Shown here: positions 15,053 to 21,755 of the stretch, one piece after another
How the letters are laid out: every line of letters starts with the position of its first letter
Position numbering within the stretch: the first letter of the stretch is position 1
Assembly (NCBI GenBank): GCA_937921555.1
Contig: CAKZUV010000219.1
Location: forward strand, 1-34,751
Reading direction: 5' to 3'
Source of the DNA: an uncultured Saprospiraceae bacterium
GTDB taxonomy: Bacteria; Bacteroidota; Bacteroidia; Chitinophagales; Saprospiraceae
Length of the DNA stretch: 34,751 nucleotides
Position numbers and translations under genes: made by a program
Notes under the pieces: generated by a model
Databases searched by the model: none
Told to the model about the DNA's origin: nothing
Seen by the model: the letters and a program-made list of their open reading frames with translations, nothing else

Positions 15053-15829
15053 GTGTCGAAGAGGTTAGTCATTATTCCTACTTATAATGAAAAAGAAAAT
15101 ATCGCAAACATTATTGCGGCGGTTTTTTCGTTACCGACTTCCTTTCATATTTTGATTGTTGACGACGGTTCACCGGATGGAACGGCGGATATTGTCAAAA
15201 ATCTGCAACTAACCAGTAAGGGACAACTACATATCATCGAAAGAAAAGGTAAAATGGGACTGGGAACCGCCTACATTGCGGGCTTTCGGTGGGGACTGGC
15301 ACGAACGTATGATTATATTTGTGAAATGGACGCCGACTTTTCTCACAATCCAAAAGACCTACTAAGATTATGTGAAGGTTGTGAAAAACAAGGCGTCGGA
15401 ATGACGGTAGGATCGCGGTACACCAAAGGTGGAAAACTTGAAAACTGGCCGTGGGACCGGGTAGCCTTATCTTACGGAGCATCTCTTTACGTGCGGGCCA
15501 TCACCTGGATGAATGTAAAAGACCCTACCGCCGGATTTGTCTGTTACCGGCGCGAAGCACTGGAAGGAATTGATCTGGATAAAATCAGATTTGTCGGCTA
15601 TGCTTTTCAGATTGAAATGAAATACGCCGTTTATTCGCTGGGCTATAAAATTGTGGAAATACCCATTACTTTTAAGGACCGGATTCTGGGAGATTCGAAA
15701 ATGAATTCCAATATTATCAGCGAAGCAGCACTGGGCGTAATCAAGATGAGATGGCAGAGACTTTTCCACAATTACGACAAAAAGGTGGTCAAACCGGAAA
15801 TGAAATCAAAAAACTCAACTTCCTCTTAA
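15053..15829 (+). CDS. Polyprenol-phosphate mannosyltransferase-like GT2 glycosyltransferase
   Basis: A 258-residue family 2 glycosyltransferase of the dolichol/polyprenol-phosphate mannose synthase type. It transfers a sugar, usually mannose from GDP-mannose, to a polyprenyl phosphate on the cytoplasmic side of the membrane. Key features are VIIPTYNEKENI at the N-terminus, VDDGSPDGT (36-44), the metal-binding D93-A-D95 in EMDADFSHNP and VGSRYTKGG. There is no C-terminal membrane domain, which matches the short soluble type. The start is GTG at 15053, giving MSKRLVIIPT; no upstream alternative fits. The gene ends before a terminator and so is separate from the dcw operon. The donor sugar is inferred from the family. 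Confidence 0.9.
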   Translation: MSKRLVIIPTYNEKENIANIIAAVFSLPTSFHILIVDDGSPDGTADIVKNLQLTSKGQLHIIERKGKMGLGTAYIAGFRWGLARTYDYICEMDADFSHNPKDLLRLCEGCEKQGVGMTVGSRYTKGGKLENWPWDRVALSYGASLYVRAITWMNVKDPTAGFVCYRREALEGIDLDKIRFVGYAFQIEMKYAVYSLGYKIVEIPITFKDRILGDSKMNSNIISEAALGVIKMRWQRLFHNYDKKVVKPEMKSKNSTSS

Positions 15830-15872: not shown

Positions 15873-15905
15873 ATCAACAGAATCTCACTGTTGATAACTT
15901 TTTTT
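15873..15905 (+). terminator. Intrinsic terminator ahead of the dcw operon
   Basis: ATCAACAG (15873-15880) pairs with CTGTTGAT (15888-15895) around a 7-nt loop and is followed by a run of seven T residues (15899-15905). It closes the mannosyltransferase transcript just before the mraZ control region. Confidence 0.75.
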
Positions 15906-15915
15906 CCCTTTTTGG

Positions 15916-15940
15916 TGGGAAAAAGTGGGAAAATGTGTCA
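15916..15940 (+). promoter_or_regulatory. Candidate MraZ operator (TGGGA boxes)
   Basis: TGGGA at 15916-15920 and TGGGA at 15926-15930 are separated by exactly 5 nt. A weaker third position, TGTCA (15936-15940), follows at the same 10-nt period. MraZ of E. coli and Mycoplasma is known to bind TGGGN-type repeats with 5-nt spacers upstream of mraZ. The boxes lie just ahead of the -7 element, so bound MraZ would be expected to block the promoter. Confidence 0.75.
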
Positions 15941-15948
15941 TTTTATAT

Positions 15949-15956
15949 TAGCTTTG
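15949..15956 (+). promoter_or_regulatory. -7 box of the mraZ/dcw promoter
   Basis: TAGCTTTG matches the Bacteroidota -7 consensus TAnnTTTG perfectly and lies 28 nt before the mraZ ATG. The -33 position overlaps the second TGGGA box and has no clear TTG. Confidence 0.65.
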
Positions 15957-15984
15957 AAGATAAATATCGAATAAAGGTAAGCAA

Positions 15985-16488
15985 ATGCCACAATTATTAG
16001 GAGAATATGACTGTAAGATCGACGCGAAGGGACGTCTGCGTTTGCCCGCAGGACTTCTTAAGCAGTTGCATGCATTCGGTTCTTCTGAATATGTGATCAA
16101 TCGTGGTATGACGCCGTATCTTACGTTATTTCCCAAAACCGTTTGGGAATACGAAAGTGCAAAAGTAAAAGCCTTAAACGGATATATTGAAAAAAATCAG
16201 GCTTTTAAAAGATATTTCTATCGGGGTGCTACTCCTCTGGAACCAGATAGCGCGGATCGGATTCTTCTACCCAAGTCACTGATTGAATACGCGGGCATCA
16301 ACAAATCAGTCATGATTCAGGGAATGGATGACCGCGTAGAAATCTGGGACAAAGAAGCCTACCTGAACGATCTTAACCAAGAACCGGCTGATTTTAGAAA
16401 ATTGGCAGAGGATACCTGGAGCAGTGTGACACCAACACCTCCGGCACCAAATCCTCTTAATCCTCCTCCGGGCCATGTCTTACCATGA
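15985..16488 (+). CDS. mraZ: MraZ, DNA-binding regulator of the dcw operon
   Basis: A 167-residue MraZ protein with two SpoVT-AbrB-like halves. The first opens with LLGEYDCKIDAKGRLRLPAGLLKQL and the second contains LEPDSADRILLPKSLIEYAGI and VMIQGMDDRVEIWDKEAY. The known role is a ring-forming transcriptional regulator that binds its own promoter region, and matching TGGGA boxes lie upstream. The protein is slightly longer than usual because of a proline-rich tail (TPTPPAPNPLNPPPGHVLP), encoded partly by the 14-nt overlap with rsmH. The overlap implies translational coupling. Confidence 0.95.
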   Translation: MPQLLGEYDCKIDAKGRLRLPAGLLKQLHAFGSSEYVINRGMTPYLTLFPKTVWEYESAKVKALNGYIEKNQAFKRYFYRGATPLEPDSADRILLPKSLIEYAGINKSVMIQGMDDRVEIWDKEAYLNDLNQEPADFRKLAEDTWSSVTPTPPAPNPLNPPPGHVLP

Positions 16489-17386
16489 ACCGGTGATGCT
16501 CACTGAATGTATCGAAGGACTGCAAATTAATCCCGCAGGAATTTATGTCGATGCAACTTTTGGTGGGGGAGGACACGCAAGGGAGATTATTAAAAAAATA
16601 AACAGTACTGGTCATCTCTACGGTTTTGATCAGGACGAAGATGCACTGGCAAATACTTTAGATAGTGAGAATTTTACGTTTGTTCAGCAGAATTTTCGCT
16701 ACCTCGATAAAGCACTCCGACTGAACGGTGTGCGCAAGGTAGATGGAATTCTCGGGGATCTGGGCGTTTCTTCTCATCAGTTAGACGTAGCCGAAAGAGG
16801 CTTTTCTTACCGGTTCGATGCCGATCTGGATATGCGGATGAATCAGGAAGGAGAACGAAAAGCCGATGAGATAATCAATACCTATTCTGCCGAAAATTTG
16901 CAGGCGATTTTTAGTCGCTACGGCGAACTGAGAAATTCGAAGACCCTGGCCCAGGCCATTGTCAGCGACCGGAAGATCCGGAAAATTAATACCATCGGAG
17001 ATTTACTAAAAGTAGTAGATCCTCTGATTCGCGGCCAGCGAAATAAATATTTATCGCAGGTCTTTCAGGCCATCCGGATTGAGGTAAACGAAGAGATGGA
17101 AGTCTTAAAAGATTTTTTGACTGCTTCGCTCAAAGTACTCAAACCTGGTGGCAGACTGGTGATCATGTCTTACCACTCGCTGGAAGACCGCCTGGTGAAA
17201 AACTTTTTTAAATCAGGAAATTTTGACGGAGAGCTCCAGAAAGATTTCTACGGAAATATTCACCGGCCTTTTAAATTGATAACTAAAAAAGCAGTATCGG
17301 CCAGTGCAGAAGAACTAAAAATCAATTCAAGATCCCGCAGTGCGAGACTGAGAATTGCCGAAAAATTAGCAGAACCAAATGGCTAA
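16475..17386 (+). CDS. rsmH: 16S rRNA m4C1402 N4-methyltransferase
   Basis: A 303-residue RsmH (MraW), which methylates N4 of C1402 in 16S rRNA using S-adenosylmethionine. It starts with the family-typical MSYHEPVMLTECIEGL. The SAM-binding loop is DATFGGGGH (26-34), followed by LGDLGVSSHQLD and, near the C-terminus, VIMSYHSLEDRLVK. The length is normal. It overlaps mraZ by 14 nt and ftsL by 8 nt, so these genes are translated as a unit. Confidence 0.97.
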   Translation: MSYHEPVMLTECIEGLQINPAGIYVDATFGGGGHAREIIKKINSTGHLYGFDQDEDALANTLDSENFTFVQQNFRYLDKALRLNGVRKVDGILGDLGVSSHQLDVAERGFSYRFDADLDMRMNQEGERKADEIINTYSAENLQAIFSRYGELRNSKTLAQAIVSDRKIRKINTIGDLLKVVDPLIRGQRNKYLSQVFQAIRIEVNEEMEVLKDFLTASLKVLKPGGRLVIMSYHSLEDRLVKNFFKSGNFDGELQKDFYGNIHRPFKLITKKAVSASAEELKINSRSRSARLRIAEKLAEPNG

Positions 17387-17708
17387 GAAAAAAAAACTTA
17401 AAGACTATTTTGAATTAGGGGATCTAAGCGCTTCCCTGATACTCAAAAATTTGCCTTTCGTTTTATTCCTGAGTTTTTTGGTGCTTATTTACATTGCAAA
17501 TGCCCACTTGTCAGAAAAAAAAGTAAGACAAATACAGGTACTGCAAAAAGAAATACAGGAAATCCGCTGGCATTATATGTCCATACAATCTGAACTGATG
17601 TACAGTACGCGCAGAACCAAAGTGGCCAATTCCGTAGCCGATAAAGGTCTGAAAATACCAAAAGGGGCTCCTAAGAAAATTGTGATTCCTAAAACAAAGA
17701 AGAAATAG
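17379..17708 (+). CDS. ftsL: FtsL-like division protein
   Basis: A 109-residue bitopic membrane protein. A basic N-terminal tail (MAKKKKLKDYFELGD) is followed by one membrane span (about 26-43) and a periplasmic coiled-coil-like segment (about 46-75, SEKKVRQIQVLQKEIQEIRWHY), ending in a lysine-rich tail. Position between rsmH and ftsI and topology identify it as the Bacteroidota type of FtsL, the divisome scaffold that links FtsQ to FtsW-FtsI. Sequence similarity to proteobacterial FtsL is low, as usual. It overlaps rsmH by 8 nt. Confidence 0.85.
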   Translation: MAKKKKLKDYFELGDLSASLILKNLPFVLFLSFLVLIYIANAHLSEKKVRQIQVLQKEIQEIRWHYMSIQSELMYSTRRTKVANSVADKGLKIPKGAPKKIVIPKTKKK

Positions 17709-17715
17709 GATAGTA

Positions 17716-19845
17716 ATGGCGGATATTAAAAATGAAGTGCTCTATCGGGTTTACGGAGTATTGGCACTCATCGTCTTGCTGGCGATGGTCCTCTTTGGGA
17801 AAGTGGTCAAAATTCAGATTGCCGAAGGAGACAAGTGGCGGAGACAGGGAGATAAAAAAGTGAAATTTGAAAAAGTGATTGCCGAACGTGGCAATATATA
17901 TTCGGAGGATGGCAAATTATTGGCCACCTCACTACCGTTCTTTGAAATACGATTTGATTTAAATTCCAGTGCCATGAGCGAAAAGGATTTCAACGAAAAC
18001 GTTGATTCCCTCGCATATTGTCTGGCCACCTTTGTGGATAATATTTACGAATTGACACCGGGTGGATACCGTCAGTTATTGATCGACCAGCGGGCCGCCG
18101 GAGAACGCTACATGCTGATCAAAAAAAATGTCACCTACACGGAACTCGAAAAAATTGAAAAATTTCCACTTTTTAATTTAGGACAGTATCGTGGTGGGTT
18201 TATTGTCAGAAGAGAAAGCAAACGCGATCCTCCTTTTAAAATGCTGGCCCACCGAACCATCGGTTACGTACGGGAAGGCGCCAACAAAGTAGGACTCGAA
18301 GGATTCTTTGACGAAGATCTGGGTGGGACAGCTGGTAAAAAACTCATGCAGAAAGTAGGGAACGATATCTGGATTCCAGTAAATGACCTGACGGAAATCG
18401 AACCTGAAAACGGGCAGGATTTGGTAACCACGATTAACGTAGAACTTCAGGAAACTGCTCAGACCGCATTGGTGCGTGCCCTCAACTTTCACGACGCAGA
18501 TCATGGTTGTGCCGTTATTATGGAAGTCAAAACGGGGGCGATCAGAGCCATTGCCAACGTCGGAAAAACCGAAAAAGGAACACTCTGGGAAACCTACAAT
18601 CACGCCGTAGGAGATGCCGTTGAACCCGGCTCTACTTTTAAACTGGCACCGATGATGGCGCTTCTGGACAAAGGGGCGATCTCGCTCGGTGACAGCATTA
18701 ATCTGGAAGAAGGTAGAACTACTTTCTACGAAGAAATAATGGAAGATTCTTCTCCTCACGGACTGGAAAAAACCACCGTCAGAAGAGCATTTGAATTATC
18801 CTCCAATGTTGGGATTGCTAAAATGGTGGAAGGAACTTACGGCAACGAAGGTGGCGCGATTGAATTTATTAACCAACTGCGAAAATATAATTTACATCTG
18901 CCAACGGGTATTCAGATTGAAGGGGAAGCATCTCCTTTTATCAAAGAAGCCTACAATAAAGAAATGGAGTGGAGTGGGATTACGCTCCCGTGGATGTCAA
19001 TCGGTTACGAAGTGCTGATTACGCCGTTGCAATTGCTGACTTTCTACAATGCGGTGGCCAACGACGGACAAATGATGCGGCCTTATTTGGTGTCGGAAAT
19101 ACAGGATTTTGGGGTAACCACCAGAAAATATAAACCGACGGTTATCAAAAAAAGTATCGCTAAACCAGAAACCATTGCGCAGGCAAAATCATTGCTCGAA
19201 GGAGTCGTGAAAAGGGGAACGGCCAGAAAGCTGGACACGGATCGCTATAATTTTGCGGGTAAAACGGGAACCGCTCAGATTGATTACCGGAAGTTCAATC
19301 GTCAGAGAACAAACCTTAAACACCGTGCCTCTTTTGTTGGATATTTTCCCGCCGAAGATCCGGTTTATAGCTGTATTGTTATGGTCACCAATCCCAGACA
19401 AAATGGGATTTACGGAGCGGATGTAGCTGGTCCCGTATTTCGGGAAATCGCCGATAAATGTTATGCGACCAGAATTGAAATGCACCGTCCGATTAATTCG
19501 TACGCAAAACCAAAATTGGTAAACTACGAACTACCTGCGATGGAAATAGGCAAAAAAGAGTCGGTGAATTATCTGCTGGATTACTTTAAACTGCCTCACC
19601 AGAATCGGGCAGCAACCGACTGGACGGTTATACAAGCTGAAAGAGATACCGTAGTGATGTTGCCAAGAGATTTGTCAGATTCAGTTATTCCGAATGTAAA
19701 AGGAATGACCTTGATGGATGCGGTGTACGTATTAGAAAATTTAGGGTTAAATGTGATAGCCTCCGGAGTTGGAAAAGTCCACCACCAGTCTATCCTTGCT
19801 GGCACAAAAGCCAGAAACCAAACGATAAAGATCAGACTGAATTAA
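17716..19845 (+). CDS. ftsI: Septal transpeptidase (class B penicillin-binding protein) with PASTA domain
   Basis: A 709-residue class B penicillin-binding protein that cross-links septal peptidoglycan. A single membrane span lies at about 12-30. The dimerisation domain has ERGNIYSEDGKLLATS (57-72). The transpeptidase motifs are S306-T-F-K309, S362-S-N364 and K516-T-G. A PASTA domain fills the C-terminus (about 655-709, VIPNVKGMTLMDAVYVLENLG), as is common in Bacteroidota FtsI. It starts 7 nt after ftsL and is followed by an unusual 452-bp gap before murE. Confidence 0.96.
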   Translation: MADIKNEVLYRVYGVLALIVLLAMVLFGKVVKIQIAEGDKWRRQGDKKVKFEKVIAERGNIYSEDGKLLATSLPFFEIRFDLNSSAMSEKDFNENVDSLAYCLATFVDNIYELTPGGYRQLLIDQRAAGERYMLIKKNVTYTELEKIEKFPLFNLGQYRGGFIVRRESKRDPPFKMLAHRTIGYVREGANKVGLEGFFDEDLGGTAGKKLMQKVGNDIWIPVNDLTEIEPENGQDLVTTINVELQETAQTALVRALNFHDADHGCAVIMEVKTGAIRAIANVGKTEKGTLWETYNHAVGDAVEPGSTFKLAPMMALLDKGAISLGDSINLEEGRTTFYEEIMEDSSPHGLEKTTVRRAFELSSNVGIAKMVEGTYGNEGGAIEFINQLRKYNLHLPTGIQIEGEASPFIKEAYNKEMEWSGITLPWMSIGYEVLITPLQLLTFYNAVANDGQMMRPYLVSEIQDFGVTTRKYKPTVIKKSIAKPETIAQAKSLLEGVVKRGTARKLDTDRYNFAGKTGTAQIDYRKFNRQRTNLKHRASFVGYFPAEDPVYSCIVMVTNPRQNGIYGADVAGPVFREIADKCYATRIEMHRPINSYAKPKLVNYELPAMEIGKKESVNYLLDYFKLPHQNRAATDWTVIQAERDTVVMLPRDLSDSVIPNVKGMTLMDAVYVLENLGLNVIASGVGKVHHQSILAGTKARNQTIKIRLN

Positions 19846-20297: not shown

Positions 20298-20326
20298 TTG
20301 ACTGCTTTATCAGAAATACTAAATGA
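20261..20326 (+). CDS. Possible 21-codon leader ORF overlapping the murE start
   Basis: ATG at 20261 follows a purine-rich AGGAGACTGAGAGGTAAG stretch and opens 21 codons (MAKFTVIKTTNTFDCF...), ending in TGA at 20324-20326, after the murE TTG start at 20298 in a different frame. Ribosomes ending there could re-initiate on murE. It could also be chance; no codon evidence separates the two. Confidence 0.35.
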   Translation: MAKFTVIKTTNTFDCFIRNTK

Positions 20327-21755
20327 CCTTTCGATAAAAAAAATTATCGGGACTACTGACCTTTCGGTTAATCATTTGGTATTTGACTCACGTAAAGTAC
20401 AACCAGCGGACCTGTTCGTTGCCGTCAGAGGACACACCATGGATGGTCATCAATTTATTGAAAAAGCCATCCGTAACGGAGCGAGCGTAATTGTCCTGGA
20501 ACAATTACCAGCTACTGTTGCTGAAAAAATAACCTATCTACTGGTTGACAACAGTGCAGAAGCATTGGGTCAGATGGCTGCCGCGATCTACGGTCACCCT
20601 TCTCAACAATTAAAATTGGTGGGTATTACGGGGACCAACGGAAAGACGACTACGGCCACTTTGCTGTTTGACCTCTTTACGTCGATGGGGTATAAAACCG
20701 GACTACTGTCCACCGTCGCAAACCGGATTGCGGGAAAAACGATTCCCAGCACTCACACAACGCCGGATGCCGTTGGTCTGAACGCACTGCTGGCGGAGAT
20801 GGTCGCAGCGGGATGTACGTACGCTTTTATGGAAGTAAGTTCGCACGCCATTCATCAGAGAAGAATTGCGGGCATCACTTTCACGGGAGGGGTTTTTACT
20901 AATTTAACCCACGACCATTTAGATTATCACGGAACTTTTCGTGATTATATCTACGCAAAAAAACAATTCTTTGACGATTTGCCGAAAGCGGCTTTTGCGT
21001 TGACGAATATTGATGATAAACAGGGGGAGGTGATGGTACAAAATACCAAAGCAAAAATTGCCCGGTATAGTTTACGTCGTTTGACGGATTACAAGGCACG
21101 GGTCATTGACAACAGCTTGACGGGATTACATCTGGAATTAAACGAAGTCGAATTTTTTAGCCGGTTGATCGGAGGATTCAACGCGTATAATCTTTTAGCA
21201 GTTTATGCCACGGCAGACTTGCTGGAAATGGATCAGATGGAAACGCTGACTAAAATGAGTGGCTTACATTCGGCGGAAGGACGATTCGAATATTTGATTC
21301 ATCCGGAAACCCTGGTTTATGCCATTGTGGATTACGCGCATACGCCCGATGCACTAGAAAAAGTGTTATTGACACTCAGAAAATTGCGAAAATCCGAAGC
21401 GCAAATTCTGACCGTCGTAGGATGTGGTGGTGATCGCGATAAAAAGAAAAGACCGGTCATGGCGGAAGTCGCAGCCCGTTACAGTAATCAGGTAATTCTG
21501 ACTGCTGATAATCCACGGACCGAAAACCCCGAAACGATCATTCGGGAAATGGAAACGGGAATTTCGGATGCCGATAGAAATAAAGTGTTGTCTATCACCG
21601 ACCGTAAACAAGCTATCCGTACCGCCTGTAAACTGGCGCGACCGGGAGACTTTGTACTTGTAGCCGGAAAAGGACACGAAAAATATCAGGAAATCAACGG
21701 GGTAAAACATCCCTTTGACGACCAGGAAATAATAAAAGAAATATTCGCCTTGTAG
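20298..21755 (+). CDS. murE: UDP-MurNAc-tripeptide synthetase, probably diaminopimelate-adding
   Basis: A 485-residue Mur ligase that adds the third amino acid to UDP-MurNAc-L-Ala-D-Glu. The ATP-binding loop is TGTNGKTTT (111-119). DNPRTE (404-409) matches the DNPR motif of enzymes that use meso-diaminopimelate rather than lysine, as expected for a Gram-negative wall. The start must be the TTG at 20298: the frame has a stop 21 nt upstream, the next Met is near residue 48, and the family N-terminus (LSEILNDL, then DSRKVQPADLFVA) begins right here. An overlapping leader frame precedes it. The rare TTG start suggests reduced or coupled translation. Confidence 0.95.
   Translation: MTALSEILNDLSIKKIIGTTDLSVNHLVFDSRKVQPADLFVAVRGHTMDGHQFIEKAIRNGASVIVLEQLPATVAEKITYLLVDNSAEALGQMAAAIYGHPSQQLKLVGITGTNGKTTTATLLFDLFTSMGYKTGLLSTVANRIAGKTIPSTHTTPDAVGLNALLAEMVAAGCTYAFMEVSSHAIHQRRIAGITFTGGVFTNLTHDHLDYHGTFRDYIYAKKQFFDDLPKAAFALTNIDDKQGEVMVQNTKAKIARYSLRRLTDYKARVIDNSLTGLHLELNEVEFFSRLIGGFNAYNLLAVYATADLLEMDQMETLTKMSGLHSAEGRFEYLIHPETLVYAIVDYAHTPDALEKVLLTLRKLRKSEAQILTVVGCGGDRDKKKRPVMAEVAARYSNQVILTADNPRTENPETIIREMETGISDADRNKVLSITDRKQAIRTACKLARPGDFVLVAGKGHEKYQEINGVKHPFDDQEIIKEIFAL

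Follow-up and report, generated by a model that had tools for sequence, protein, structure and literature searches.

MraZ forms a ring, and structures of MraZ are found in the PDB under entries 9qlr, 9qlg, 9r4j, 9sx6, 9sz7, 1n0e, 1n0f, and 1n0g. The motif of E. coli MraZ given by Eraso in 2014 is said to be TGGGN. The mraZ operator of E. coli K-12 consists of three GTGGG boxes at a 10-nt period directly upstream of mraZ, and reading of the sequence places TTGACA and a -10-like GTAAAC 5' of the boxes, which we take to be the mraZ promoter. In the Mollicutes, the MraZ box is AAAGTG[T/G] (Fisunov 2016, as described in PMC8475190), and it likewise forms direct repeats with a GTG[GT] core after an A-run. 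DnaA is also located at a division-operon promoter, that of ftsL in B. subtilis (Goranov 2005, as cited in PMC8203912).

The mraZ locus described here resembles the E. coli K-12 operator in its three boxes, their period and their position directly upstream of mraZ, whereas the promoter is arranged differently, with the -7 box on the 3' side of the boxes and the second box in place of the -33 element. The Mollicute box, which belongs to a different phylum, resembles it in the direct repeats of the GTG[GT] core. Compared with the ftsL promoter, the class to which the locus belongs, in another phylum, has a candidate DnaA-like 9-mer that is phased with the MraZ operator. The operator is of a kind already known and its architecture is a variant; what this analysis adds is a measure of its conservation, the finding that the promoter changed sides, and two accessory layers. 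The present arrangement is not described in the listed titles and abstract openings of the literature on MraZ, on DnaA at ftsL and on DnaA boxes and oriC.

The window, the whole stretch of 34,751 nucleotides that was analysed, comes from a 5.44-Mb genome in 403 contigs, the closest named relatives of which are Saprospiraceae MAGs with 89-90% identity in MraZ. The features of the locus are as follows.

15053-15829, + strand: upstream, co-directional glycosyltransferase gene (PF00535)
15873-15895, + strand: terminator-like hairpin followed by a run of T, downstream of the glycosyltransferase gene and upstream of mraZ, overlapping the DnaA-like 9-mer
15889-15897, - strand: DnaA-box-like 9-mer TTATCAACA, offset -26 from box 1, common to many relatives
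15915-15920, + strand: MraZ box 1, GTGGGA, beginning at about -46 from the predicted start
15925-15930, + strand: MraZ box 2, GTGGGA, beginning at about -36 and spanning the -33 position
15935-15940, + strand: MraZ box 3, variant GTGTCA, beginning at about -26; the GTGT form recurs in the family
15949-15956, + strand: -7 box TAGCTTTG, fitting TAnnTTTG (consensus as given in PMC7366714 and PMC9723704)
15961, + strand: predicted transcription start, from the placement of TAnnTTTG at -12 to -5 (PMC9723704)
15985-16488, + strand: mraZ, first gene of the dcw cluster (PF02381, E 2.9e-24)
16475-17386, + strand: rsmH (mraW; PF01795, E 2.7e-96)
17379-17708, + strand: ftsL-like gene (PF19579)
17716-19845, + strand: ftsI-like transpeptidase with PASTA domain (PF00905, PF03717, PF03793)
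20298-21755, + strand: Mur ligase (Mur ligase families), probably murE as judged from gene order

The first-pass annotation had described two TGGGA boxes with a 5-nt spacer ahead of a -7 box and mraZ, and examination of the window confirmed their coordinates: exact TGGGA stands at 15916-15920 and 15926-15930, and TGGGA-N5-TGGGA occurs exactly once in the whole window. A third box at the 10-nt period had been claimed as degenerate. It is present, as GTGTCA at 15935, but it is a common family variant and not a degenerate copy. The direct GTGG-type boxes follow a 10-nt period (15915, 15925, and the variant at 15935) at the promoter that serves mraZ and the rest of the dcw cluster, and 44 nt separate the end of box 3 from the ATG of mraZ at 15985. 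TGGGA by itself is at chance level in the window (76 observed, 76.8 expected), and the pair GTGGKA-N4-GTGGKA occurs three times in the 5.44-Mb genome, while the reversed-pattern control gave none; a box pair without the rest of the array is only suggestive as evidence of function. When we scanned the genome with a model of the array and the -7 box, built from 33 training rows that include the window's own site, the site was unique with 41.5 bits (E 7e-10), and the runner-up reached 15.4 bits (E 0.11). No other MraZ target above 15.4 bits was found in this genome by the array-model scan. The model also matched 34 of 40 relatives. TGGGA was rejected as the consensus, as the core is GTG[GT]; the conserved unit is this core in A-rich surroundings, and TGGGA is its local form.

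The first-pass annotation had proposed aligning the mraZ upstream regions of relatives, and this comparison revealed the 10-nt-spaced boxes throughout the phylum. Of 60 relatives, 56 had a detected mraZ, as did 279 of the 296 genomes sampled from the phylum, and 179 of the available upstream regions were picked to span many genera and families. At least two GTG[GT] boxes at the exact 10-nt period were present in 163 of the 179 regions and at least three in 97, while 20 shuffles gave at least two boxes in a mean of 2.85 and a maximum of 6 regions and at least three boxes in none. The other periods from 5 to 19 were found in 2-14 loci each, and period 20, the harmonic, in 107. The pair was kept in 35/37 loci of the window's own family, 29/31 in the rest of the order, 26/28 in the rest of the class, and 73/83 in the rest of the phylum. 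Among named relatives, a set that overlaps the 179 loci, 78 of 80 had boxes at the 10-nt period; the loci of both sets are related by descent, so that these counts are not independent. In several of the 16 loci that have no GTG[GT] pair, ATGG or TTGG variants stand at the 10-nt spacing instead. The box pair was absent from the promoters used as controls, groES (0/30) and rpsT (0/29). At L012, L013, and L016, a AAAAGTGGAAAT-like sequence before the matched MraZ could be a GTG start, and it resembles an MraZ box.

The boxes also occur together with mraZ. When we searched all 21 genomes without an mraZ match for rsmH, 14 were positive and the other seven were uninformative; one of the 14, G340, was dropped because of a decayed mraZ, and 13 genomes were left. 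No box pair was found within 1.2 kb upstream of rsmH in any of these 13 mraZ-less genomes, nine of which belong to one family and in which rsmH is not necessarily the first gene of its operon. Two of the 13 have a lone pair further away, at -1267 and -1312 from rsmH. The dropped locus, L265, retains a C-terminal mraZ remnant before rsmH, and ATGG and AGGG box variants at a 10-nt period are seen upstream.

We then compared the position of the promoter relative to the operator, counting offsets from the first G of box 1, with numbered families. With class labels assigned by tool, 68 of 96 loci inside the window's class have TAnnTTT at +33 to +37, on the 3' side of the boxes, compared with 4 of 83 outside it; by kinship, the counts inside are 33/37 for the family, 12/31 for the rest of the order, and 23/28 for the rest of the class. 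The longer TAnnTTTG gives 31 matches at +34 to +36 in the 37 family loci, and TAGCTTTG, a -7 box of the type of the Bacteroidota primary-sigma promoter, stands at the same offset in the window and its relatives. One family of the window's order, f20, has TTATTTTG at +13, between boxes 2 and 3, in 9 of 10 loci.

At 50 of the 83 loci outside the class, representing 23 of 38 family labels, TTGAC is located 5' of the boxes (-40 to -16), compared with 1 of the 96 loci inside it; a control stretch contained TTGAC in 4/96 loci inside and 2/83 outside. Its position is sharp within families, at -30 in 8/8 loci of f42 and at -28 or -29 in 7/8 loci of f53, and in loci of this type it is accompanied by TTATTTTG at -5 or GTACNTTG at -7. 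These elements read as a promoter of sigma70 type that precedes the operator, which is also the order in E. coli K-12. Since TAnnTTT is found 3' of the boxes inside the class and TTGAC 5' of them outside it, the predicted promoter has switched sides between the window's class and the rest of the phylum, while the operator stayed fixed. The suggestion that the operator is conserved and the core promoter changed, made from the window, accordingly holds in a sharper form. It means that regulator and operator were kept phylum-wide while the start signal for polymerase was rewired, which is a promoter turnover at a fixed operator. An inverted half-box TTCCCA was also observed 3' of box 3, at about +24 to +42, in 20/83 loci outside the class and 0/96 inside, with examples in the non-Bacteroidia loci L126, L136, L149, and L172.

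With a start near 15961, the boxes would begin at about -46, -36, and -26, and box 2 therefore covers -33. Overlap of the boxes with the -33 region had been proposed earlier, and box 2 indeed lies where a -33 element would be; a TTTG -33 element was not found before the -7 box of the window, where GTGGGA of box 2 occupies the position. According to PMC7366714, no -33 motif was detected in Flavobacterium johnsoniae, so this element may not be essential. Since 50 of the 83 loci outside the class have their boxes 3' of TTGAC, the -33 overlap characterises the lineage rather than the operator as such.

Based on these observations, we suggest with good confidence that MraZ uses 15915-15940 as its autoregulatory operator. 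With three boxes in direct repeat and one helical turn apart, the site would present a single face of the helix to adjacent subunits of the ring. The boxes of this lineage stand immediately 5' of the -7 box with box 2 in place of the -33 element, and MraZ bound there would exclude the sigma factor and RNA polymerase. Because of this placement, MraZ should repress its own division operon. The same placement could be read in the opposite sense, as activators also bind 5' of a -7 box and TTTG is missing at -33, in which case the boxes would substitute for the missing element and MraZ would hold the polymerase. We consider activation unlikely: box 2 covers the -33 site rather than flanking it, the E. 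coli protein carries the annotation of a repressor, and PMC8475190 describes the MraZ of M. genitalium in the same way. That the boxes are a functionless chance run in AT-rich DNA would agree with the chance-level frequency of single TGGGA in the window and with the three pairs in the genome. Such a run would hardly keep an exact period in 163 of 179 loci and a fixed register with the -7 box, nor would it be lost together with mraZ, and we regard chance as highly improbable.

Upstream of the proposed operator, there is a conserved site that looks like a DnaA site, as predicted from its sequence. When 9-mers were counted without bias over the 100 nt that precede the operator at 92 loci of the class, TTTTCCACA, TTATCAACA, and TTATCCACA occurred 15, 10, and 10 times against an expected 0.15-0.40, ranking 1st, 3rd, and 4th in the 9-mer list. 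TTWTCMACA was present at 41 of the 92 loci, while 1000 permuted words reached a maximum of 22, for an overlapping word, and a median of 0. By kinship it is found in 7/33 loci of the window's own family, 21/31 of the order, 13/28 of the class, and 9/83 outside (shuffle means 0.9, 0.5, 0.5, and 1.0, respectively); four loci of the window's genus (L004-L007) were left out of the DnaA and distal counts. The positions cluster at -37, -26, and -16 on the minus strand and at -11 and -22 on the plus strand with helical-turn spacing (Rayleigh p 2e-4 and 5e-3), and, measured from the predicted start, the centres of 21 of 23 sites fall between -54 and -68. In the named set, 39 of 78 loci carry a DnaA-like 9-mer, mostly at -26 minus and -11 plus. 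These 9-mers were rejected as extra MraZ boxes, as they do not keep to the 10-nt register and as TTATCAACA and plus-strand copies are among them.

The positions and counts raise the possibility of dual control, in which DnaA at the 9-mer, roughly one to three helical turns ahead of the operator, would couple division-gene expression to replication initiation. The word is about ten-fold enriched 5' of dnaA itself, the promoter of which is known for control by DnaA, with 1.39 per kb compared with 0.13 elsewhere (six short dnaA loci were left out, leaving 24 of 30), and it is absent from the groES (0/30) and rpsT (0/29) promoters. The 30 genomes of the groES, rpsT and dnaA controls were, however, selected once the DnaA-like words were already apparent, and they carry the word at mraZ in 22/30 cases compared with 41/92 unselected. 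ChIP shows DnaA at the ftsL promoter region of B. subtilis, according to PMC8203912. On the other hand, the low count in the window's own family speaks against the idea, and the window's 9-mer sits within the terminator-like hairpin, which is a confounder. TTATCAACA has one mismatch to TTATCCACA and departs from the strict TTATNCACA, with A replacing C at position 6. An inverted partner within 30 nt accompanies 10 of 63 9-mer sites, four of them from the window's genus, and a search for origins by DnaA-box pairs gave 9 pairs in 7 of 14 genomes, with two neighbouring pairs in one genome, and pointed to no clear origin in most of the 14. In addition, PMC11019786 gives RsmH and PbpB levels of B. 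subtilis close to wild type after arrest of replication initiation, and strong DnaA control in that species is disfavoured because of this. We therefore treat the 9-mer as a candidate site and put dual control at somewhat below an even chance; if the element is real, Bacteroidota would allow a direct test of how replication initiation is linked to the expression of division genes. Within the genus (L004, L006, and L007), the hairpin at 15873-15895 recurs with sequence variation.

A second layer consists of two-box MraZ sites in reverse orientation further upstream of the operator. These were found at 36 of 174 loci, 22-298 nt from box 1 (one further locus with a distal region of at most 60 nt was dropped), compared with 11 in forward orientation and 0-9 at other periods; with a strict pattern, the same 174 loci yielded 18 in reverse and 2 in forward orientation, compared with 0-2 for the other periods. 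In the named set, reduced to 72 loci by taking out two that lacked a run, three near-copies, and the short loci, there were 26 reverse and 14 forward sites, and 17 against 1 with the strict pattern. The window has no distal inverted site. A divergent promoter was rejected as the source of these boxes: in 41 strict sites, some from genomes counted twice, once as an unnamed and once as a named locus, the eight third-box triplets seen most often do not include GTG, and any given offset of TAnnTTT is found three times at most. Distal inverted sites are also present where the upstream genes are co-directional. A ring of MraZ with several DNA-binding faces could bridge to them, which makes them a possible looping partner of the operator, and they would supply a reason for the ring form.

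Taken together, the dcw promoter of the class may tentatively be viewed as a composite switch, with a DnaA site at -54 to -68, the MraZ operator over -33 and, in some genomes, distal inverted sites bridged into a loop. Such a switch would tie division-gene output to replication initiation and would have arisen when the core promoter moved from 5' to 3' of an immobile operator; as a whole we hold it to be rather doubtful. At single loci, we observed a second and sometimes a third distal inverted site without a -7 box about 100-310 nt 5' of the primary operator (L012, L018, L023, L026, L090, L100, L197, L205, L209, L217, L219, and others).
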